53,778 bases of DNA from Candidatus Woesearchaeota archaeon (GTDB lineage: Archaea > Nanobdellota > Nanobdellia > SCGC-AAA011-G17 > GW2011-AR18), in contig JAGVZM010000022.1 in NCBI GenBank assembly GCA_018302545.1, positions 1 to 53,778 on the forward strand. Direction: 5' to 3'. Under the pieces are notes generated by a model. The model saw only the letters and a program-made list of their open reading frames with translations, did not search any database and was not told the origin of the DNA. The position numbers and the translations under genes were made by a program. Positions 5,234 through 18,554 of the stretch are shown piece after piece. Each line of letters opens with the position of its first letter. Within the stretch, counting starts at the first letter, position 1.

Positions 5234-6726
5234 TTATCCTTTTACATTTCCAATAGGAAGGAAACGAACTACAGGTTTAGAAATTCCAGATTTATCTAAT
5301 GCATCAATTACATCAGTAATATTTTTATATGCTGATCCAGCTTCTTCTGCTAGTCCTTGCATTGAAGAAGATTTGACATAAATTCCTTTTTTCTCCATTT
5401 CTCTTTGTAAAGTTTCTCCTCTAAATTCTTTTTTTGCTTGAGTTCTTGACATTATTCTTCCAGAACCGTGTGCAGTACTAGAGAATGTTTCCTCATCTGC
5501 TTTTTTAGTTCCTGCTAATAAATAAGAACCTGTTTCCATACTTCCACCAATTATTACTGGAGAACCAACATCTTGGTATAATTTAGATACTTCTGGATTT
5601 CCAGGACCTTGACATAAGGTTGCACCTTTCCTATGTACAACTAATTTCTTCTTTTTTCCATCTATTTTAAATTCTTGATATCTGGCTAAATTATGAGCAA
5701 CATCATAGATACAATGCATATTCATATCTTCTGCTTTTTGTTTAAAAACTTGTTCAAAACTTTCTCTTATTCTATGTAATATAACTTGTCTGTTTGAGAA
5801 AGCCATATTAGCTGCACATGCCATTGCTTTATAATAATCTTGTCCTTCTTTGCTTAAGAAAGGAGCACAACTTAATTCCCTATCATTTATTTTAATATTT
5901 TCTCTTTTCATAACATTTTCAAATATTTTTAAATAATCTGTTGCAACTTGATGTCCGAATCCTCTAGAACCACAATGAAACATAATTACAATTTGATCTT
6001 TAAAAATTCCAAATTTCTTAGCTAATTTTTCATCAATAATATTTTCAGGTTTTACATGTTGAATTTCAAGATAATGATTTCCTGAACCTAAAGTTCCTAA
6101 TTGATCTATTCCTCTTTGTCTTGCTTTATCTGTAACTTTACTTGAATCAGCCCAGTCTATTTTCCCATTACTTTCAATTCTTTCTAAATCTTCTTTCCAA
6201 CCGTAACCATTATCTATACACCATTTAGCACCTTGTTCCATAACCTCATTAAATTGTTGATTATTTACTTTAACAAATCCTTTACAACCTACACCAGAAG
6301 GAACTGCCTTAAATAAAGTGTTCACTAGATCTTTTATTTTAGGTTGAACGTCTTTGATAGTTAAGTTAGTAGTCAACAAGCGCATACCGCAATTAATATC
6401 AAATCCTATACCGCCAGGAGATATTACTCCGCCTTGATCTGGATCTGTTGCAGCAACACCACCAATTGGGAACCCATAGCCCCACTTGTCTTTCTTTAGA
6501 AAAGTCTAAAAGAAAAATGACCATCGGGCATGCATAATGCATACTTTTGGATTCCTGGTAGACATGCTACGTTAGTTACCTGATCAAATACTCCTTTGTC
6601 CATTACTTCAAGTAATTGTTTTGTTGCAATTACTCTTGCTGGTACGTTCATACCTTGTTTGAAACTTGTTGGAATTTCCCATACAGCTTCTTCTATTTGT
6701 TTTATGTCTTTTGGTATATTTGACAT
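5234..6726 (-). CDS. rtcB: RtcB RNA-splicing ligase, interrupted by a 32-nt BHB-like intron (6485-6516)
   Basis: RtcB joins 2',3'-cyclic phosphate and 5'-OH RNA ends using GTP and Mn2+, completing tRNA splicing. Exon 1 (6726-6517) encodes residues 1-70, ending CMPDGH. Exon 2 (6484-5234) resumes WGYGFPIGGVAA and encodes 71-486. In the joined protein all expected active-site residues are present: D99 and C102 (GFDINCG), H207 (GSGNH), H240 (HCGSRG), H334 (VAHNLA) and H409 (TAHGSGR, the guanylated His). Length 486 matches the family (about 480). Unspliced mRNA gives only 76 residues because the frame meets TAA at 6498-6496 inside the insert. A TATA box about 6750-6757 implies a leaderless start. 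If the insert is not spliced, this is a disrupted gene. Confidence 0.93.
6485..6516 (-). other. Predicted archaeal BHB pre-mRNA intron in rtcB
   Basis: In the sense strand, GGUC (6522-6519) can pair with GACA (6490-6487) by three Watson-Crick pairs plus G-A. The flanking 3-nt bulges are AU^U (6518-6516) and AG^U (6486-6484), with cuts after the second bulge base, the splicing endonuclease rule. Between them TTTCTT(T)TAGA and TCTAAAGAAA form a 10-bp hairpin with one bulged T and a CTTT loop. Cutting at these points joins CAU to UGG and restores RtcB exactly. The outer helix is imperfect. The geometry matches the tRNA introns at 12336-12908. Confidence 0.75.
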
Positions 6727-8864: not shown

Positions 8865-9290
8865 TTAAATATCTATTATAACTTTTGAAAACCAGGATCT
8901 GTCTTCTTTTTGTTCAACTTTAAATTCATGTAGTGTAACTGCCTTTGCGTCTGCTATTAATTCATGCCTTTCTCTATCAATAAAATCTCCTTCACATTTT
9001 GCATTTAATTCATATTTTCCCTTTGAACATGTTATAATAATACTAAATTTGGAGAATAATAACCCTTCAGTATCTTTTAAGAATATTAATTCTGATAAGA
9101 AATCATATAATAAATTCTCTATATCAGAAGCCTGCAAGAATATGTCATACTGTTCTTTCTTTTTTATAGATTTAGTTTCTACCATTATTGATTCTGTAGC
9201 TAAAGCTGCATTTTCAAATAATTCCTCTAAATTTTTTCCATATGCCTCAAATAGCACGTCTGCAGTATGATCAAAAAATTTATACTTCAT
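8865..9290 (-). CDS. Archease, RtcB activator
   Basis: Archease speeds GTP-dependent guanylation of RtcB and so tRNA splicing. The 141-residue protein opens MKYKFFDHTADVLFEAYGKN with the family DHTAD metal-binding motif, followed by SLEELFENAA-like helix (NLEELFENAALA), DIENLLYDFLSELIFL, and KAVTLHEFKVEQ near the C-terminus. I chose ATG 9290 over 9311 because agaggaaaataaaa gives a ribosome binding site and the N-terminus then matches the family. It overlaps the upstream archease-like gene by 11 nt (translational coupling). It lies 2.1 kb upstream of rtcB on the same strand. Confidence 0.92.
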   Translation of the reverse strand: MKYKFFDHTADVLFEAYGKNLEELFENAALATESIMVETKSIKKKEQYDIFLQASDIENLLYDFLSELIFLKDTEGLLFSKFSIIITCSKGKYELNAKCEGDFIDRERHELIADAKAVTLHEFKVEQKEDRSWFSKVIIDI

Positions 9291-9729
9291 TTTTATTTTC
9301 CTCTTGAACATTTCTTCTTTCTATGACTAAATTAATTTGTGCGTGAGTTCCTTGTAAATCTTCTTTTATTAATATATTTCTATCTGTTATTTGTTTTATA
9401 ATATCCTTTACTTTATATTCTGGTTTCATTTTATCTCCAATTAATATGGAATTTAACATATACTCCTCTGATATTTGTTCTATTGTTAATGATTTTACGG
9501 ATGATAAGACAAATAGATCATTATTAGCCAAATCAAATAATCTTTTTAAAAATTGGTATAATAAATTTTTCAGATCTCGCGACCTTAAAATTATAGTTCT
9601 TGTTGATATTAAGTCAATCTCTTCTACTTCAATTACTAAATTATAAAGTTCTGTTGCCATTTTTGAGAATGTTTTTTCTAGTGATTCTGCATTTGCTTTT
9701 AGTGTTATTTCTTCTATTTTGCTTTTCAT
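9280..9729 (-). CDS. Degenerate archease paralogue
   Basis: 149 residues. The middle, SRDLKNLLYQFLKRLFDLANNDLFVLSSVK-type text, aligns by eye with DIENLLYDFLSELIFLKDTEGLLFSKF of the neighbouring archease, and the N-terminal SLEKTFSKMATELY matches its NLEELFENAALA helix. It lacks the DHTAD motif and the C-terminal metal-binding end, so it is probably not a catalytic activator on its own. It might pair with the complete archease, whose start it overlaps. Confidence 0.65.
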   Translation of the reverse strand: MKSKIEEITLKANAESLEKTFSKMATELYNLVIEVEEIDLISTRTIILRSRDLKNLLYQFLKRLFDLANNDLFVLSSVKSLTIEQISEEYMLNSILIGDKMKPEYKVKDIIKQITDRNILIKEDLQGTHAQINLVIERRNVQEENKNEV

Positions 9730-9836: not shown

Positions 9837-12296
9837 ATGGGTAAATTGAAGAGAAGGGGCATTATTAGAAGAAATAAAGGGAAATTGGCAGTTTTAGGAA
9901 TAGCAGGAGCTGCTACTTTAGTGGGGGAATCTTCTTTTGGTTTAGTTTCTGAAAATGTTGGAAGAGGTTTAAGTTATTTAGGAGATAGAGTTCATAGTCA
10001 AGATCAAGGGCAATATTGGCAAGCATTTCATCAACATGAACATGTTAAGACTAAATTTAAAGGTGAGGGGGAAAAAAAGAGAGAGAAAGATGAAGATATT
10101 TTTCCTGATATAACCATAATTGAAAAATGGCCTATTTCTAGAGAAAATGATATTACAATAAAAGATAGTAACGGAGAAGTCATAGCTCAAAGAAGGTCTA
10201 GCAGAAGTTATTTGAGTTATGAAGAGATTCCTAAACTTGTTAGAGATGCTTTTATTTTGAGAGAGGATAGAGGTTTTTATGATCATCATGGTGTTAACTG
10301 GAAGGGAAAATTAGGTGCTGTTAAAAGATTGATAACTAGTGGTGAATCAGGTGCAGGAAGCGGTTTAACAGAACAAGTTGCAAAATGGTTATTTACTCCA
10401 GAAGGCAAATCTAGACCTGCTAGAAGGGGATTAAGTGGGCTTGTTCAAAAGTTTTTTCTAGAGTTACCTTTAGCTATGGAAATAGATCATAGGTATAGTA
10501 AAGAAAAAATCGCAGAATTTTATTTGAACAATAGTTATTTTGGAAATGGAAATTATGGTGTAAAAGCTGCTGCACAAGATTATTTTGGAAAAGATGTTAA
10601 AGATTTGACTCAAGCTGAATCTCTTTTTTTAGCAGTGTTAGTTAATAAACCTGGAAGAAATCCTAGGGAAAGTCAGGAGTTTGTTAAATATCAAAGAAAG
10701 GAATATCTATCTTTTGTTGCATCTTTACATAATTCAGGATTATTAAATACTCAAGAATATCAGGCTTGTAAAAAAGATGGAAGTGTTAAAATTAACGCTA
10801 AAGGAATTCCGATTAGATCTATTGTTTTTCCTGAAATAGTTGCTTTGGTTGATGAAGAAGTTGAAGAATTAGACATAAGAGGGTATTTTGGAGATGTTAA
10901 TCCTGGTTTTAGATTAGTTATTAATACAAGTATAGATAGTGGCTTAACTACAAAATTAAAAGAGTCTGTAGGAATATTAGGAAATAATTTAGGTAATGTT
11001 TCTAGAGAAAATTTAGATGGCGGCGCAGTAATAATGGATGAGGAGGCAAGAATTGTTGCAATTGCTGGAAGAAGAGACTATAAACATTTTGGACAAGTTT
11101 TGGTACCTGTATTAAAAGTTCCTAAAGCTTCTACAATTAAACCTTTTATTTATGCAACTGCTTATGATCTAGGGATTATAACTCCTGATGATTTATTTAA
11201 TGATACACAAGAAGGCTTTGAAAATGTTGAAAAACCACCTAAAAATTGGGATGATGAATATGGAAGAGATATGGCAGCTTGGGTTGCTTTAGCTAAATCT
11301 AATAATGTTATTAGTAGAAGAGTTTATGACAAATTAGTTGAACATCCTGAGGGATTTAATGTTTTATTAAAAAGATTAGAAGCATTAGGTTTTGATACCA
11401 CCGCTTATAAAAAATATGGAAAACATGATCGGAATAATACTGTGTTAGGTGGAAGAGAAAGATTAGTTAGTCCAATAGATATGGCTGCAGCTTATAATGT
11501 TTTTAATAGGAAGGATAATGGAATTTTTACTGGAGATGTTTTAGCTCCAACTGTTATTGTTGGATTAGAATTCAATGGTACAACTATTGATTATGAAAGG
11601 GAGGCTATTCCTGTTTTTAGACCTGAAACTATTGAGAAAATTAGGCCTAGTTTAATCAGGGTTGCTAATGGTGTTGTCGGGAGAATGAATCAAGCTGTTG
11701 TTTGGGGCAAAACAGGAACTTATCAGAAAACAGTTTATACTTGGTTTGCTGGTGGTTTTGAATTAGATGGAAATAATTACTCAATGGCATTTTTAGCTAT
11801 GAATGAAAGAGGGCAGAGTATAGGAGACTTATTTTCAACCCAAGTTATTGGTCCTGTAGTTAGCAACTTTATCAATAGGGCTTCTCCAAAATACAAAGTT
11901 GAAATACCTACAGCAACAGGTCTTGAAGAATATTTAAGTGGCAGAGCTGAATGTGATAAATATAGCAACCCTAGAAATATTAGGGAAGTTTTGGATAGTG
12001 GACAGGCATTTACTCTAGGAAGTTTGAGTGAAGATTTGGGTGTTTGTTCTGAATTATATCAAGTTGGAAGTAGGGATTGGAGCTACTTTAAATTTTATCA
12101 AGGTGTATCTCAAGAGAAGTTATATGAACAATGGAGAGCTCTTGGCTATTCTAAAGAGACTGTAGATTACTTATTAAGTGCTATTTCAACTTACAAAAAT
12201 GTTGTGGATTTTAGTACTAAAGAAGATCCTCATAGAATAGAAGCTAAAGAAAGACTTGATAACTTAGAAGGAATTAAGAAAACTATTTTGAATTAG
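9837..12296 (+). CDS. Class A penicillin-binding protein (GT51 transglycosylase + transpeptidase)
   Basis: 819 residues. A basic N-terminus and one membrane anchor (about 17-37) precede a GT51 domain: LREDRGFYDHHG (catalytic E143), GSGLTEQVAKWLF (176-187), and the YLNNSYFGNGNYGVKAAAQDYFGK block (229-252). The transpeptidase has all three motifs: S432-T-I-K435 (SxxK), S488-N-N (SxN) and K625-T-G-T. Both domains look catalytically intact. Class A PBPs polymerise and cross-link bacterial peptidoglycan; archaea normally have none. Base composition and style match the neighbours and the gene is followed 39 nt later by an archaeal tRNA, which argues against contamination. No other murein gene is visible. 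Horizontal acquisition is inferred. Confidence 0.93.
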   Translation: MGKLKRRGIIRRNKGKLAVLGIAGAATLVGESSFGLVSENVGRGLSYLGDRVHSQDQGQYWQAFHQHEHVKTKFKGEGEKKREKDEDIFPDITIIEKWPISRENDITIKDSNGEVIAQRRSSRSYLSYEEIPKLVRDAFILREDRGFYDHHGVNWKGKLGAVKRLITSGESGAGSGLTEQVAKWLFTPEGKSRPARRGLSGLVQKFFLELPLAMEIDHRYSKEKIAEFYLNNSYFGNGNYGVKAAAQDYFGKDVKDLTQAESLFLAVLVNKPGRNPRESQEFVKYQRKEYLSFVASLHNSGLLNTQEYQACKKDGSVKINAKGIPIRSIVFPEIVALVDEEVEELDIRGYFGDVNPGFRLVINTSIDSGLTTKLKESVGILGNNLGNVSRENLDGGAVIMDEEARIVAIAGRRDYKHFGQVLVPVLKVPKASTIKPFIYATAYDLGIITPDDLFNDTQEGFENVEKPPKNWDDEYGRDMAAWVALAKSNNVISRRVYDKLVEHPEGFNVLLKRLEALGFDTTAYKKYGKHDRNNTVLGGRERLVSPIDMAAAYNVFNRKDNGIFTGDVLAPTVIVGLEFNGTTIDYEREAIPVFRPETIEKIRPSLIRVANGVVGRMNQAVVWGKTGTYQKTVYTWFAGGFELDGNNYSMAFLAMNERGQSIGDLFSTQVIGPVVSNFINRASPKYKVEIPTATGLEEYLSGRAECDKYSNPRNIREVLDSGQAFTLGSLSEDLGVCSELYQVGSRDWSYFKFYQGVSQEKLYEQWRALGYSKETVDYLLSAISTYKNVVDFSTKEDPHRIEAKERLDNLEGIKKTILN

Positions 12297-12366
12297 AAAG
12301 TTTTATAATTGTTTTATTTTTCTAATTTTTTATGTGGGCCCGTAGCTCAGTCTGGTGGAGCATCTG

Positions 12367-12405
12367 AACTCAAGTTTTTAGAAAAAGCTTGAGCAAAATG
12401 ATGAA
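12367..12405 (+). other. Noncanonical intron 1 of tRNA-Lys (BHB)
   Basis: Central helix CATC (12361-12364)/GATG (12400-12403), bulges TG^A (12365-12367) and AA^A (12404-12406), outer helix GGAG/CTCT, and an inner hairpin CTCAAG/CTTGAG. Cutting after the second bulge base at each end joins CATCTG to ACTCTTAA, the correct Lys anticodon arm. Position 30/31 is away from the usual 37/38 site. Confidence 0.8.
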
Positions 12406-12411
12406 ACTCTT

Positions 12412-12424
12412 AACCAATGAGTGA
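12412..12424 (+). other. Short intron 2 of tRNA-Lys (relaxed motif)
   Basis: A 13-nt insert in the anticodon loop. Central helix ACTC (12406-12409)/GAGT (12419-12422), then bulge-like GA^A and a loop TT^A. There is no inner helix, so it is a bulge-helix-loop form. Because of the repeated As the ends could shift by 1-2 nt (12412-12424, 12413-12425 or 12414-12426) with the same product. Confidence 0.65.
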
Positions 12425-12525
12425 AATCAGAGGGTCGAGGGTTCAAATCCCTTCGGGCTCATTTTACCACCTTATTTATTTTTTATCTCTGAAAAATTTA
12501 TTAGAATTTGTTACTGATATTTAAT

Positions 12526-12795: not shown

Positions 12796-12908
12796 GCCCC
12801 AATCGTCTAGTCCGGTCCAGGATAAAGGCCTCTCGAGTAAACTTTTATAAAAAGTTTAATCAAAAACGGAGAACGCCTTTGACGTGAGTTCGAATCTCAC
12901 TTGGGGTA
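12796..12908 (+). tRNA. tRNA-Glu(CTC) with one intron
   Basis: Acceptor GCCCCAA/TTGGGGT (G1-U72), Glu-type D arm (GTCTAGTCCGGTCCAGGA), anticodon stem AAGGC/GCCTT, T arm GTGAG-TTCGAAT-CTCAC, discriminator A12908. The loop is CTCTCG^...^C, anticodon CTC. Removing the 38-nt intron (12836-12873) leaves 75 nt. CCA is not encoded. Confidence 0.9.
12836..12873 (+). other. Canonical 37/38 BHB intron of tRNA-Glu
   Basis: Central helix CTCT (12830-12833)/GGAG (12868-12871), bulges CG^A (12834-12836) and AA^C (12872-12874), outer anticodon stem AAGGC/GCCTT, and an intron hairpin AAACTTTT/AAAAGTTT (perfect 8 bp, loop ATA). This is a textbook BHB motif. Confidence 0.9.
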
Positions 12909-12955: not shown

Positions 12956-13237
12956 ATGGAATATGAGGAGGGTACAAAATTAGTTAACAGATATGTTAAT
13001 AGTTTTAACATTGTAGGAAATTTTTTATTGGGTATTGGAATTGGATATTTATCAACTAAGTATTTCTTAGATTTTAATCAAATATCCTCTGCTTCATTAG
13101 CTAATGCGACAGTATTATTAATAAAGGAGGGTTATGAACGTAAAAATCCAGTAAACTTTTCTTCAACTAATATTAATTTAGATTTATCTACGATTTTAGG
13201 CACAGTTGTATTCTTGGGTTTAGAGAAACTACTTTAG
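12956..13237 (+). CDS. Small predicted membrane protein
   Basis: 93 residues, not recognised. A hydrophobic Gly-rich stretch (FNIVGNFLLGIGIGYLSTKY, about 17-36) and a C-terminal one (LDLSTILGTVVFLGLEKLL) suggest one or two membrane segments. It starts 48 nt after tRNA-Glu and precedes a lipoprotein-like gene by 55 nt. Codon use is ordinary for the window. Confidence 0.55.
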   Translation: MEYEEGTKLVNRYVNSFNIVGNFLLGIGIGYLSTKYFLDFNQISSASLANATVLLIKEGYERKNPVNFSSTNINLDLSTILGTVVFLGLEKLL

Positions 13238-13292
13238 AGAGTATATAAAGGATATAATAAAGTATTTTATACAATCAAGATAAATATAATAT

Positions 13293-13655
13293 ATGGTAAA
13301 TTATAGACAATTAACGGCTATTCTATTTTATGCTTTAATAGGTTGTGGTGGAAGTGATGAGATTACTAACTATTATGGTCCAAAAAATAAGCAAGCTTGT
13401 TATTTTAAACCTGATCCATATGAGTGTTTAACAGATCTTGCTGTAAGGAATTCGGACCCTGATTATTGTTTAAGTATAGAAGACAAATGTTTATCAGAAG
13501 GATGTATGTTTAGGGTTGCAATCACTTCGAGTAGTACCCTAACTTGCAGTAAATTTAAAGAAAGAAGATTTCAAAATTTATGTAATAATTTTAAGAAAAG
13601 ACAAGAAAATGATATTGTCTTAGGAAGAGAAGATTTTAGTTGTATCCCTGAATAA
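13293..13655 (+). CDS. Small Cys-rich lipoprotein-like protein
   Basis: 120 residues. The N-terminus MVNYRQLTAILFYALIGCGG carries a short hydrophobic segment and a lipobox-like LIGC, suggesting a lipid-anchored extracytoplasmic protein. Eight further Cys follow, in CYFKPDPYEC, CLSIEDKCLSEGC and other pairs, likely disulfides outside the cell. No family recognised. Confidence 0.6.
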   Translation: MVNYRQLTAILFYALIGCGGSDEITNYYGPKNKQACYFKPDPYECLTDLAVRNSDPDYCLSIEDKCLSEGCMFRVAITSSSTLTCSKFKERRFQNLCNNFKKRQENDIVLGREDFSCIPE

Positions 13656-13706
13656 ATATATTTTTTTAAAGAAATTCTTATAAATACTAAAACACCAATA
13701 TTAATA

Positions 13707-14150
13707 ATGGGTTTAGAAGACAGTTTAAATGATGTTGATGCAAGAAGGACTATTAGTTTTCCAGAGCAATTAGAATTAGGTTCTATGAAAAGTTTGTTAG
13801 AATATTTATCTAGACAAGGAAAATTTCTTGTTGGTTATGACGTAGAAACAAGTTTTGAGATTGGCAGTATTGAATATCCTACAAATGAACCACCCTATTT
13901 TAATTCAGAAGCTAGAGATGAAAGGGCTAAAAATTTGAAAGGCAGACTTACTGATACAGAGAATCAAGCACAAGATCATTTTGAAACTGAATTGGGTTAT
14001 ATTGATAGAGAAGAAAGTGATATTACTATATTTAGTGGTATGAAATTTAATCTAGTTCCTGGTTGGGGAATTAAAGACTATAGGAAAGAGGTTGTTGATT
14101 TATGGGATAAAACTAGAGAATTAGTTAATTCTTATTTTCAGCAAAGATAG
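13707..14150 (+). CDS. Hypothetical acidic protein
   Basis: 147 residues, no recognised family, no signal peptide or membrane segment. Rich in Asp/Glu, starting MGLEDSLNDVDARRTISFPE, with a helical C-terminus (DYRKEVVDLWDKTRELVNSYF). It lies 44 nt before the methylthiotransferase on the same strand. Confidence 0.6.
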   Translation: MGLEDSLNDVDARRTISFPEQLELGSMKSLLEYLSRQGKFLVGYDVETSFEIGSIEYPTNEPPYFNSEARDERAKNLKGRLTDTENQAQDHFETELGYIDREESDITIFSGMKFNLVPGWGIKDYRKEVVDLWDKTRELVNSYFQQR

Positions 14151-14193: not shown

Positions 14194-15345
14194 ATGGCAA
14201 GTATATTTATAGATAATTATGGTTGCACTGCGAATTATGACAATGGCCATATAATCGCTGGTATGTTAATAGAATGTGGACATGAAGTTGTCCAAGATAT
14301 GATTGATGCTGATGTGGTTATAATCAACTCATGCGCTGTTAAAAATGTTACAGTAAATAAAATATTCTATCAAATAAAAAAAGTTAAAGAATTTTCTGAT
14401 AAGAAATTGATTATTACTGGTTGTATGAGTGTTTCTGAGAAAGAAAAATTAAATAAATATCTAGGAGAGGGGGTTGCTTTAGTAAGTACTCAAAATATAA
14501 CTCATATTCCAGAGGTTGTTGAGAAAATTTTAAAGAATGAACAAGTAGTTTTGATTAATAAAAGGAAAGAGATTAAATTGGGTTTGCCTAAGCTAAATCC
14601 CGATAATAAGATTGCTTCAATTCAAATATCAGAAGGTTGTTTAAGTTATTGTGGTTTTTGTAGTACTAAATTAGCAAAAGGTAATTTAGTTTCCTATCCT
14701 AAAGAACAAATTGTGAGAGAAGTTGAGAAATACGTAAAAGGAGGTTACAAAAGAATTAATTTAACTAGTACGGATAGTGCTTGTTATGGATTTGATTTAG
14801 GATATAATTTAGTAGATTTATTAAAAGAGATTATTCAAATAGCTGGAGAATTCCAAGTCCGGATTGGTATGGGAAACCCCAAACATACTATCAAATACTT
14901 TGATAGTTTATTAGAAGTCATGAAGAATAGTAAGATTATGAAGTTTATACATTTACCATTACAGAGCGGAAGCAATAAAGTTTTAGATGAAATGAAAAGA
15001 GGCCATAAAGTTGAAGATTTTATTTATATGGTTGAAACATTAAAAAAAGAAATCCCTGGAATTACTATAAGCACTGATATTATTGTTGGATATCCTACAG
15101 AAACTGAGGAAGATTTTTTGAAAACTGTTGAAGTTGTTGAAAGACTAAATTTTGAAGTTATGAACTTAAGTAAATTTGCATCTAGAACTGGGACTTATGC
15201 AAGTAAATTAAAACAGCTACCCAGTCAACTTATCAAGGATAGAAGTGTTAGATTGAGTTTAATTTACAAAAATTTAAAGAAGAATAAAATTAATGAAACT
15301 ATTTTTATTGAAATCCCTAAAGGTTTACCTATAATCCAAAATTAA
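14194..15345 (+). CDS. Radical-SAM methylthiotransferase (e-MtaB/CDKAL1 type), TRAM domain absent
   Basis: Such enzymes convert t6A37 to ms2t6A37 in tRNA. The N-terminal MTTase domain has C11, C47 and C77 for the auxiliary cluster. The radical-SAM CxxxCxxC is C149-C153-C156 (EGCLSYCGFC), and TDIIVGYPTETEEDF (about 294-308) is a late radical-SAM motif. The usual C-terminal RNA-binding TRAM domain is missing: at 383 residues it ends GLPIIQN, within the 3' end of the convergent gene at 15325. Enzyme class is sure; the e-MtaB versus MiaB assignment is inferred from archaeal context. Confidence 0.88.
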   Translation: MASIFIDNYGCTANYDNGHIIAGMLIECGHEVVQDMIDADVVIINSCAVKNVTVNKIFYQIKKVKEFSDKKLIITGCMSVSEKEKLNKYLGEGVALVSTQNITHIPEVVEKILKNEQVVLINKRKEIKLGLPKLNPDNKIASIQISEGCLSYCGFCSTKLAKGNLVSYPKEQIVREVEKYVKGGYKRINLTSTDSACYGFDLGYNLVDLLKEIIQIAGEFQVRIGMGNPKHTIKYFDSLLEVMKNSKIMKFIHLPLQSGSNKVLDEMKRGHKVEDFIYMVETLKKEIPGITISTDIIVGYPTETEEDFLKTVEVVERLNFEVMNLSKFASRTGTYASKLKQLPSQLIKDRSVRLSLIYKNLKKNKINETIFIEIPKGLPIIQN

Positions 15346-15873
15346 ACTATTCATAGGTCCAGAAATTGTTATTTGGTTTTTTCTTAAAGGATAAAATTTA
15401 TAATTTGCAAGAACTGTTGAGGCTTTTTCTATGTCTCCAGATACAATTAATGTGCTTGTTCTTTTTTTGTTTATTAATTCTAAGTAACCTGATTCAGAAA
15501 CAAGGTTACAATTATTTGTTTTCAATTCTTTAGCTATTAATTTGTTAGTACAAGTATCTCCGATTAATATTAGATTATATTCCTCTTTTGGAGATCTACT
15601 TACAGGAATTATATTACTACTTAATTGTGTGTTAATGTTTAAGGATTCTGATATTTTAATCGCTGCATCATACTCTTGAAATGTGTAATCATCTGGAATT
15701 ACAATCAATAACTGATTAGGAATATTATTTTTTATGAATGGAAATGGGTAATCCCCTAATGTTATGTCTTTTTGTTCTAAAATAGTATAACCTGTATAAA
15801 TGCTTCCAAAAGTTGCTAAGAATAAAATTGATATGAATAAACCTATTACAATTATTGCTACTTTTCTAATCAT
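15325..15873 (-). CDS. Membrane-anchored surface protein with S-layer-associated-like domain
   Basis: 182 residues: one N-terminal membrane segment (VAIIVIGLFISILFLATFG), then an extracellular domain with ITLGDYPFPFIKNN, LLIVIPDDYT and YNLILIGDTCTNKLIAKELKTNNC, then TLIVSGDIEKASTVLANYKFYPL. The pattern of 'resource' strands and SGD..KAS.VLANY is seen in surface proteins of DPANN archaea; I know no function. It is convergent with, and overlaps by 21 nt, the methylthiotransferase gene. Confidence 0.6.
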   Translation of the reverse strand: MIRKVAIIVIGLFISILFLATFGSIYTGYTILEQKDITLGDYPFPFIKNNIPNQLLIVIPDDYTFQEYDAAIKISESLNINTQLSSNIIPVSRSPKEEYNLILIGDTCTNKLIAKELKTNNCNLVSESGYLELINKKRTSTLIVSGDIEKASTVLANYKFYPLRKNQITISGPMNSLILDYR

Positions 15874-15989
15874 GTAAAATATAGATTGAAATGTTTATAT
15901 AAATCTTTTTATATTATTAATTGTCATCGTTCTATCTTAGATTTAGAACTTTCTCTAAAAAAGTTAAATAGATAAAAAAGAAAAATAAA

Positions 15990-16639
15990 TTACTTTAATT
16001 TCTTATGTGCTGGTTCAAAATCTTTCCATGCTGTATTAAACAACTCTTCTAAAGCGCCTCCAAAGAAAGGTGTATTAACCCAAATACCTACATCATATGT
16101 TGGATGTACTTCTTCATCATGCATTGCCATGAAAAGTAAATTTCTTCCATCAATGACACAGAATCTTGCACGTAAATAGTTACTGATTTTTCTGCATTCT
16201 TTACCATAAGTTCTAAATGATTGTATAATTGATGTTTTCCTCTTATAGCTCCTGATAAATCAGTAGAATCAACAAACTCAATACCCTGTTTATGCAAGGT
16301 TTCTAATTCTCCAATAACTTCATTGTTGTTCAACTCTTTTAATCTTAAAACAGCTTTGTCTGCTTCAGATTGAATATTCTTTTTTACTCTTTCAACAACT
16401 TCAACAGGTTCGACTGCTAAGTATCTAATTGGTTTACCTAGTTTCATAACTACAAAACCTTTCTTCTCTAAACTTTCTAAAACATCATAAGCTCTGCTTC
16501 TTGGAACGTGACCTATATCAGATAACTCTCCTGCAGTTGAAACGCCTCTAGAAAGAAGAGCAGTCCAAATACGGACTTCATATAAATTTAAATTGAAGTA
16601 TCTTCTAAGTTTACTTAATAATTCTTCTTTAACTATCAT
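15990..16639 (-). pseudogene. TrmB-like regulator with a frameshift
   Basis: The N-terminal frame (ATG 16639, stop at 16088) encodes a winged helix (FNLNLYEVRIWTALLSRGVS..., PRSRAYDVLESLEKKGFVV) and linker up to NAEKSVTIY. The family C-terminus then continues in the -1 frame: ARFCVIDGRNLLFMAMHDEE, a beta region and LEELFNTAWKDFEPAHKKLK, ending at TAA 15992-15990. Adding one base near 16170 would give an intact protein of about 216 residues. A gggggt ribosome binding site lies 7 nt before ATG 16639; the TTG at 16642 is less likely. A consensus error in a T run is possible, as the conserved tail remains intact. Confidence 0.65.
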
Positions 16640-16766
16640 CAAGACGACCCCCTCTTATCACCTTTTTTTGTATGATTTTTGTTCTTTTGTATTAGTAGTA
16701 ATAAACTTGTATTTAAATGTTTTTGTTACTCGACAAATATAACTAAATTTTTAGTAAATAGTGAAC

Positions 16767-18554
16767 TTACTTATTTCTATATCTTTGAATATTATAAATT
16801 TGTTCTATATCTTCTATTGTACTTATTTCATCTATTGGTTTTTCTTTCAAACCTATTCTTAATCTTAAAACTCTTGGGAATCTTAAACCATAACCAGAAG
16901 AATATTCAGTACTCTTTTGTATTTCTTCGAATGCAATCTCAATTACTATTTTTGGTTCAATAGTAATCTCATTTCCTGTTTGTTTTTTCATCAATGGTTT
17001 TAGAATTTTAGTCATCTCTGCATAAGTTATTCCTTCTTCTTGTTCTTTTTCTTTTACTCCAGTACCTACTTTTCCTAACTCTAGTAATTTATCTTTTTCT
17101 TTATTTAAACAAGCTACAGTAAAAGAAGTTAACCATCCTGCTCTTTTTCCTTGACCATATTCTGCTTTTACTATGACTAAATCTAAAGTATCAAGTATTG
17201 GTTTAATCTTAATTCCATAACCTACTCTTGAACCTGGTTTATATGGGGCATCTAATTTTTTTGCCATCATTCCTTCATTACCCAAATCTAAAGATTCTTT
17301 ATAAAATTGTTCAGCTTCTTTAACATCATCAGTTACTACTTGTTTTATTGGATAAATTTTGTAAGGAAGAGGTTTTACTATCTTTTCTAAAATATGTCTT
17401 CTTCTGTGAAAAGGAGTATCCAATAGACTTTGATTTTTATGGGAGATTATATCAAAAACATGTATTATTATTGGAACTTCTTTTACTAGTTTAGCTATAT
17501 CATATTTTCTTTTGATTCTTTGAGAAATTGCTTGGAATGGAACTTGTTTTTTTGTTTTGGGATCAATTCCCACAACTTCAGTATCAATTATGTAATCTTT
17601 TTCTTTTATTGATTCTTGTAATGCTAATATTACATCTGGAAATTGGTTTGTTACATTTTCTAGGTTTCTAGTATATAGAATTATTTTTCCACTCTTTGAG
17701 TGTATCTGCAATCTAAATCCATCTATTTTGTATTCAAATGCTGCAGGTTTTCCTACAATTTTAAATGCTTCTTCTATGTCTTTTGCTTTTTGAAATAACA
17801 TTACATTAATTGGTTTACCTGCGTTTAAACTTATTTCTTCTAAGCCTTTAATCCCTTTTTCTTTAATTATTAAAAAAACTTCTGCAAAATCGTTAGTCAA
17901 ATCGTATCCATGCTGAACTTTTTCTAAAAATAAGTTATATTCCTGCCTTGTCTTTTCGGGAATATCTAATTGATTTTCTTCTTTTATATAATTTAATTTT
18001 AATTTGTCTTCAAAGAAGAACCATACTATTGCATCTCTTAATGTTCCCTCTGCTACCCCTATTCTTAATTGCATTAATATTGTTCTCACTACAAACTTAG
18101 CTTCTTGGGGAGATGCGGAGGTTAACAATTCTGACATTAAACCTACTTTTTTATTTACTGTTCCTTGACCTTCCAACTCTGCAAGTTGTCTTAGTTTATT
18201 ATAAACTAAGTCACATGTTAACTTTTTTGTTTGTAGGGTAGTCTGTTTTTTGCTTTTTGTTAATTCTTCTGCTACTAATCCTAAGTCTCCTGTTTTTGTG
18301 TATAATTTTTCTACTTTATCCTTAGAAATTCCAGTAGAAGTTGTTAAGGCTTTTATTACTAATTTATCTGAGACTCCTATCTTTCTTTGATCCCATGAGG
18401 GGAATACAGAACCTCTTAATAAATTTATAATTTGTTCTGGATCTTTTTCATTTAAAACATTTTTAAGAAACTCTTTTATTATGTTTGTTTTTTCTAATCT
18501 TTTAGAAGTGGATTCTAATTCAGTATAACATTCCGTTAATTTAATATAATCCAT
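16767..18554 (-). CDS. lig: ATP-dependent DNA ligase
   Basis: The archaeal replicative ligase sealing nicks and Okazaki fragments. 595 residues: an N-terminal DNA-binding domain, the adenylation domain with catalytic K276 (AFEYKIDGFRLQIH), nucleotidyltransferase motifs TEVVGIDP and GNEGMMAKKLDAPYKPG, then the motif V-type YGIKIKP and an OB domain ending in SGYGLRFPRVLRLR. Length is typical (550-600). It is divergent from the nitroreductase gene with 40 nt between starts. Confidence 0.96.
   Translation of the reverse strand: MDYIKLTECYTELESTSKRLEKTNIIKEFLKNVLNEKDPEQIINLLRGSVFPSWDQRKIGVSDKLVIKALTTSTGISKDKVEKLYTKTGDLGLVAEELTKSKKQTTLQTKKLTCDLVYNKLRQLAELEGQGTVNKKVGLMSELLTSASPQEAKFVVRTILMQLRIGVAEGTLRDAIVWFFFEDKLKLNYIKEENQLDIPEKTRQEYNLFLEKVQHGYDLTNDFAEVFLIIKEKGIKGLEEISLNAGKPINVMLFQKAKDIEEAFKIVGKPAAFEYKIDGFRLQIHSKSGKIILYTRNLENVTNQFPDVILALQESIKEKDYIIDTEVVGIDPKTKKQVPFQAISQRIKRKYDIAKLVKEVPIIIHVFDIISHKNQSLLDTPFHRRRHILEKIVKPLPYKIYPIKQVVTDDVKEAEQFYKESLDLGNEGMMAKKLDAPYKPGSRVGYGIKIKPILDTLDLVIVKAEYGQGKRAGWLTSFTVACLNKEKDKLLELGKVGTGVKEKEQEEGITYAEMTKILKPLMKKQTGNEITIEPKIVIEIAFEEIQKSTEYSSGYGLRFPRVLRLRIGLKEKPIDEISTIEDIEQIYNIQRYRNK

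Follow-up and report, generated by a model that had tools for sequence, protein, structure and literature searches.

A class A penicillin-binding protein in an archaeal genome lacking murein precursor synthesis, with a possible role at the wall of a bacterial partner

Class A penicillin-binding proteins (PBPs) are bacterial enzymes in which an N-terminal membrane anchor is followed by a GT51 glycosyltransferase and a transpeptidase (TP) domain, in that order, as in the PBP1A family (TIGR02074), S. aureus PBP2 and E. coli PBP1a/1b. Among archaea, the pseudomurein of Methanobacteriales and Methanopyrales is a cross-linked glycopeptide wall that is made with pMur ligases and pMraY. A survey from 2012 found GT51 in none of 101 archaea and tied the family to the presence of murein (PMC3541169). 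Peptidoglycan hydrolases are known from archaea, including large SLT proteins of Pacearchaeota and Woesearchaeota (PMC8204110, PMC9723730, PMC12352652), and the last of these papers describes murein hydrolases that kill bacteria and are carried by archaea, prominently Nanoarchaeota. The available parts of these papers report no archaeal PBPs or GT51 synthases. Moreover, our search, which covered the open-access literature, found no earlier report of class A PBPs in archaea. An archaeal class A PBP without a wall pathway, which may well act upon a bacterial partner's wall, thus appears to be undescribed so far.

The window, that is the whole stretch of 53,778 nucleotides that was analysed, is the entire contig C6 of its source genome (1.16 Mb in 30 contigs, 95.6% complete). 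The features that concern us are the following.

5234..6726, minus strand: rtcB (RNA ligase) gene, a conserved neighbour, with a 32-nt insert at 6485-6516
8865..9311, minus strand: canonical archease gene, a conserved neighbour (Pfam E 4e-42)
9280..9729, minus strand: divergent archease-like paralogue (Pfam E 5e-14), directly upstream of the PBP in genomes G059, G280 and G279 too
9837..12296, plus strand: class A PBP gene, an ORF of 819 aa with an ATG start and Pfam, PDB and fold matches
9837..9947, plus strand: predicted membrane anchor, a basic N-terminus followed by a hydrophobic segment at aa 19-37 (hydropathy and model)
10176..10703, plus strand: GT51 glycosyltransferase domain, aa 114-289, with E143 at 10263-10265, K205, and E209 at 10461-10463
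11019..11810, plus strand: DD-transpeptidase domain, aa 395-658, with SxxK at 11130-11141, SxN at 11298-11306 and KTGT at 11709-11720
11811..12293, plus strand: C-terminal alpha-helical extension, aa 659-819, without a Pfam family
12336..12461, plus strand: tRNA gene with an intron-like insertion (Rfam), the downstream flank of the PBP
12796..12908, plus strand: second tRNA gene with an intron-like insertion (Rfam)

Both catalytic domains of the PBP were recovered by Pfam, Transgly (PF00912) over aa 114-289 with 144.9 bits (E 2.3e-42) and Transpeptidase (PF00905) over aa 395-658 with 62.2 bits (E 6.2e-17), and since both scores far exceed the gathering scores, chance is excluded for these matches. 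The GT51 domain contains REDRGFYDHHG with E143, GxS..TEQ, K205 with E209, and E..YLN, the spacing between K205 and E209 being one residue more than in K-x-x-E. In the transpeptidase domain, SxxK is S432-T-I-K435 (STIK), SxN is S488-N-N490 (SNN) and KTGT occupies residues 625-628. There is no stop and no frameshift within the ORF. The first-pass annotation had read a complete class A PBP with all GT51 and transpeptidase motifs intact (E143, SxxK, SxN, KTGT), and the ORF, Pfam and our own motif reading agree with it.

The hydropathy of the protein peaks at 1.54 over aa 19-37, its single hydrophobic segment after the basic N-terminus, and the structure model places a helix at aa 14-52 with modest confidence. 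Because this is the pattern expected of an anchored PBP, we predict an N-terminal anchor and catalytic domains that would face outwards. The C-terminal extension is helical over the last 160 residues, is modelled at low confidence, is poorly conserved and is missing from PBPs of the type found in G004, a genome of the same class. The solved structures that match best in sequence belong to class A PBPs, among them 5u2g (E 1e-28) and S. aureus PBP2 (E 8e-26). An AlphaFold model, for which the input was an alignment of the window PBP with 37 bacterial PBPs, reached a mean pLDDT of 75 and a pTM of 0.71, with most of the GT and TP blocks above 85. Foldseek matched this model to S. aureus PBP2 and other class A PBPs (best E 1e-26), with TM-scores of just 0.33-0.44 by query length and a large rmsd, so that the domain arrangement is not fixed by the model. 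The nearest NCBIfam family is PBP_1a_fam (TIGR02074, E 1e-71); because the protein scores 241.9 bits against a curated cut-off of 508.75, we class it, by its sequence, as a divergent class A PBP outside that subfamily. It shares the GT51-transpeptidase order, all catalytic motifs and the fold with the bacterial class A PBPs, but differs from them in a longer N-terminal region that includes a conserved G-x-YW stretch, in the C-terminal helical extension and in belonging to a genome without the cognate lipid II pathway.

In a tree of 39 rows, which was rooted at the midpoint and in which the bacterial sample is biased to relatives of G004 and G132, the window PBP grouped with those of G059, G280 and G279 (its own family), G043 and G091/G215 (two other families) with support of 99/97. 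This seven-sequence clade covers three families, contains archaea only and stands apart from every bacterial row. A quick tree of 52 rows gave the same groups with weaker support. The PBP of G004 fell within bacterial PBP1A proteins and that of G132 also among bacteria, whilst G042+G089 and G086+G283 formed separate long-branched lines; a single origin of all archaeal PBPs is therefore unsupported. These proteins probably derive from several acquisitions, and the window PBP is probably part of an ancient archaeal line that diverges fast. As a single query against genome and viral contig collections it found no relatives, and an alignment of the G004 and G132 proteins as query led to bacterial PBPs.

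Nine archaeal homologues, which are 20-34% identical to the window PBP, leave just 27 invariant columns. These include E143, D144, H150, G152, S175, Q180, K205, E209, Y229 and N231 in GT51, and S432, K435, S488, N490, K625, T626, G627 and T628 in the transpeptidase. Within the family, identity is highest in the GT domain (39-46%), followed by the TP domain (29-42%) and the C-terminus (17-31%). Since the catalytic set is among the invariant columns at such low identity, both activities would evidently be under selection, to judge from residue conservation, and have been kept whilst the rest of the protein changed.

The order rtcB, a variable gene, archease, archease-like, PBP is found in four genomes of the family, namely the source genome, G059, G280 and G279, and in G279 the genes 3′ of the PBP (14194-18554 in the window) are conserved as well. 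Across these four, the flanks are mostly 60-88% identical as against 26-32% for the PBPs, with the archease-like gene of G279 at just 39%. G281, a congener of G059 and G280, has no PBP; its two archease genes abut EF-1A directly and the EF-1A leader is conserved. This clean natural absence shows that the PBP is dispensable and not an artefact. Carriers of PF00912 amount to 12/279 genomes across the phylum (~4%), 13/378 in the class and 5/10 in the family, and G004 has a PBP of another clade in a closed, single-contig chromosome of 1.3 Mb.

That PBPs are bacterial enzymes raises the suspicion of bacterial contamination, a chimeric contig or a decaying recent transfer, and one PBP contig does invite it: C43 of G132 (L041, 7318 bases), although binned as archaeal, carries a PBP of bacterial type alongside an EF-G-type GTPase and may well be a binning contamination. 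For the window PBP, contamination and chimera are ruled out, because the synteny is conserved with archaeal genes on both sides, the absence in G281 is clean and a further PBP lies in the single contig of G004. Membership of the archaea-only clade and an uninterrupted ORF with every motif intact argue in the same direction, and as an explanation of this gene the whole suspicion is extremely improbable. The first-pass annotation had looked to assembly breakpoints or absence from relatives as evidence against the gene; what we found is synteny conserved in four genomes and a clean absence in one congener. The identity of the enzyme as a class A PBP and its residence in an archaeal genome are near-certain.

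The immediate surroundings of the gene had been described as archease genes and a tRNA with introns, and there are indeed two archease-family genes upstream and two tRNA genes with long insertions downstream. Both tRNA genes were detected by Rfam and are absent from a default ARAGORN run. Three small ORFs (93, 120 and 147 aa) without a Pfam family occupy 12956-14150, between the tRNAs and a radical-SAM/UPF0004 gene. A place within a wall operon was considered and rejected, since the flanks consist of rtcB/archease, tRNAs and genes without Pfam families. The archease and archease-like pair stays together in G059, G280, G279 and G281.

The source genome has no Mur_ligase_M domain (Mur ligases C-F), no SEDS polymerase (FtsW/RodA), no lipid II flippase MurJ and no second or class B PBP, the transpeptidase domain of the window PBP being its only one. 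Mur ligases are absent from all 12 PBP-bearing genomes searched, the source genome and one closed chromosome included. Five PBP-bearing relatives each gave one Mur_ligase_M match, which is FolC by its GTNGKGS and TSPH motifs (NCBIfam confirmed one), and no SEDS protein was found among 15 PBP-bearing genomes. An assembly that is 95.6% complete might miss a single gene, but incompleteness hardly accounts for the corresponding absences in G004 and G059, which are both rated 100% complete. A hidden murein pathway is therefore rejected for Mur ligases, SEDS and MurJ. The suggestion that the PBP is part of a transferred wall system is likewise unsupported, given these four absences in the source genome and the fact that 11 further PBP-bearing genomes lack both Mur ligases and SEDS. 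The search for mur genes, a flippase and hydrolases that had been proposed thus returned, for the source genome, hydrolases and neither Mur ligases nor MurJ.

The source genome does contain two complete enzymes of the Glycos_transf_4 (MraY/GPT) superfamily. With 38 bits where the mraY family requires 192, and 38-39 bits where MraY_archaea (pMraY) requires 450, they score so far below the cut-offs that an identity as MraY is improbable; one lies near STT3 and a UDP-GlcNAc dehydrogenase/aminotransferase pair and is read as N-glycosylation. The likeness to pseudomurein, as an archaeal cross-linked glycopeptide wall, therefore does not extend to its synthesis, which uses a Mur-type ligase and a pMraY that this genome does not match. 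These two enzymes could nevertheless supply a substrate if the PBP had been re-tasked to an endogenous polymer other than murein, with GT51 polymerising an archaeal lipid-linked glycan and TP cross-linking its peptides. An archaea-only clade with a divergent N-terminal region and a C-terminal extension would suit such a change of function. This reading, which the first-pass annotation had offered as an own wall polymer, is weakened because 10/15 PBP-bearing genomes, the 100% complete G059 included, have no Glycos_transf_4 match with which to start a lipid-linked glycan. Moreover, the source genome has no Mur-type peptide ligase of any sort, its Glycos_transf_4 enzymes fall short of both the MraY and the archaeal pMraY cut-offs, the catalytic motifs of lipid II and D-Ala-D-Ala type are unchanged, and absence from the congener G281 would be odd for a structural wall component. 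An own polymer thus stays in consideration as a fairly unlikely explanation.

Two proteins encoded elsewhere in the source genome are predicted to act on murein.

L069:6743-8338 (contig C8): SLT protein of 530 aa with the motif HIESRGN...GIAQ, intact by eye
L070:6777-8612: SLT + M23 protein of 610 aa with hydrophobic N-terminal segments and the M23 motifs H..D and HLH, intact by eye

The 530-aa protein begins with a short run of basic residues and then a hydrophobic helix, which by eye resemble the archaeal pilin-type signal peptides. SLT occurs in 14/15 PBP-bearing as against 10/22 PBP-less genomes (Fisher p 0.004, a statistic that ignores relatedness), and within the source family in just 4/5 as against 3/5. 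In G042 the PBP gene and an SLT gene lie side by side in divergent orientation. As the window PBP would, the archaeal peptidoglycan hydrolases described in PMC8204110, PMC9723730 and PMC12352652 act on murein in archaea that have none and are patchily distributed, but they degrade murein whereas an enzyme of the PBP type would polymerise and cross-link it. Furthermore, GGGP synthase (PcrB) was above cut-off in 0/20 genomes, the whole source family included. The usual route of ether-lipid synthesis is thus missing and, because of this absence, lipids may be scavenged from a partner. Cultivated DPANN are generally accepted to obtain lipids from their hosts (PMC11291902).

In the most likely explanation, to which we give an even chance, the PBP acts on a bacterial partner's murein or lipid II, and the partner's wall would be opened by the hydrolases and closed again. 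On this simplest account, since the cell makes no precursors, the murein would belong to a partner. The enzyme, with intact motifs and predicted to be membrane-anchored and to face outwards, resides in a small-genome archaeal lineage that apparently cannot make lipid II and that is of DPANN type, to judge from its genome size, its lack of GGGP synthase and its archaeal gene content. At the contact site, the SLT lytic transglycosylase and the SLT+M23 endopeptidase proteins would open the partner wall, SLT cutting glycan and M23 peptides, after which the PBP would re-polymerise the wall locally through GT51 and cross-link it through TP. Lipid II might come from the partner's membrane via the contact, or from partner lipids taken up by the archaeon. 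We infer the outward topology, the enzymatic activity, the bacterial partner, the source of lipid II and the open-and-reseal role. A parallel for this role is provided by Bdellovibrio, which opens, reinforces and reseals the murein of its prey with hydrolases and transpeptidases (PMC10482364), so that one cell alters the wall of another; Bdellovibrio is, however, a bacterium with its own murein, and its enzymes (Bd0886/Bd1176) are LD-transpeptidases, not class A PBPs. Of the three functions first proposed for the gene, an episymbiont's action on its partner cell has the best support, with murein hydrolases present, own precursors lacking and GGGP synthase absent. Several observations speak against it. 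According to a 2024 paper, every DPANN archaeon in cultivation by then has an archaeal rather than a bacterial host (PMC11291902). The partner is hypothetical, and a membrane-anchored archaeal enzyme would somehow have to reach lipid II across a partner envelope. In addition, G279 has a PBP and no SLT match, the SLT association is weak within the source family, no hydrolase gene lies next to the PBP in the window, and the two Glycos_transf_4 enzymes make an own lipid-linked glycan possible in the source genome.

The same lipid uptake, as suggested by the lack of GGGP synthase, could instead bring in lipid II along with lipids of a bacterial host, from which the archaeon would assemble a patch or coat of murein on its own surface. 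GT51 and TP are intact, the predicted anchor would lie in the archaeal membrane and hydrolases are available for turnover, but the PBP is dispensable, as its absence from G281 shows, it has no SEDS, MurJ or FtsI-like partner, and to our knowledge murein has never been seen on any archaeon. We regard such a coat as decidedly unlikely. It is also unlikely that an archaeon without any tested precursor gene builds real murein, be it a patch on its own surface or a seam shared with its host, from the lipid II of a bacterial host of which the membrane lipids are used as well.

Lastly, the PBP might be a weapon that uses up lipid II or produces aberrant murein in bacteria that are competitors or prey, beside the bacteria-killing archaeal hydrolases mentioned above. 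Its fast divergence against conserved flanks and its patchy distribution would fit an arms role, but a membrane-anchored synthase is improbable as a toxin, no secretion or immunity module lies beside the gene and both synthetic activities appear conserved, which makes a weapon very unlikely.

A GT51/transpeptidase that is retained and catalytically conserved in archaea without precursor synthesis breaks the rule that GT51 is a genomic marker of a murein wall, and it extends the murein-related repertoire of these archaea, from which degradation had been reported before, to wall synthesis. Moreover, it points to bacterial partners for DPANN-type archaea, of which the cultivated members had archaeal hosts as of 2024 (PMC11291902).

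PBPs of different clades adjoin genes for translation GTPases, namely EF-1A in G059/G280 and EF-2 in G283; in G215, EF-2 lies a few genes from the PBP. The loci are as follows.

L034:12285-13565: translation GTPase/PBP locus
L048:10914-12197: translation GTPase/PBP locus
L042:4387-6567: translation GTPase/PBP locus
L049:10494-12683: translation GTPase/PBP locus

The gene convergent with the PBP in G215 (L042:11631-12326) encodes, by its Pfam match, a putative undecaprenyl diphosphate synthase-type prenyltransferase, and a copy of 80% identity is convergent with the PBP of G091 (L040:3583-4281). Both are perhaps relevant to a polyprenyl carrier.

The 32-nt insert of the window rtcB (6485-6516, minus strand) separates the codons of MPDGH|WGYG, and its excision yields an intact RtcB of 486 aa. 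The genes of G059 and G279 are without it. Because the insert RNA folds better than shuffles (z -2.4) and shows a bulge-helix-bulge-like pattern, it may be an mRNA intron of the archaeal type, lying in the very gene of the splicing ligase. The rtcB ORF of G280 (L048:2495-5455) is oversized at 986 aa and perhaps holds an intein, and in the source genome (contig C20, L070:1144-3732) the gene for IMP dehydrogenase is interrupted by an intein-like Hint/LAGLIDADG segment.
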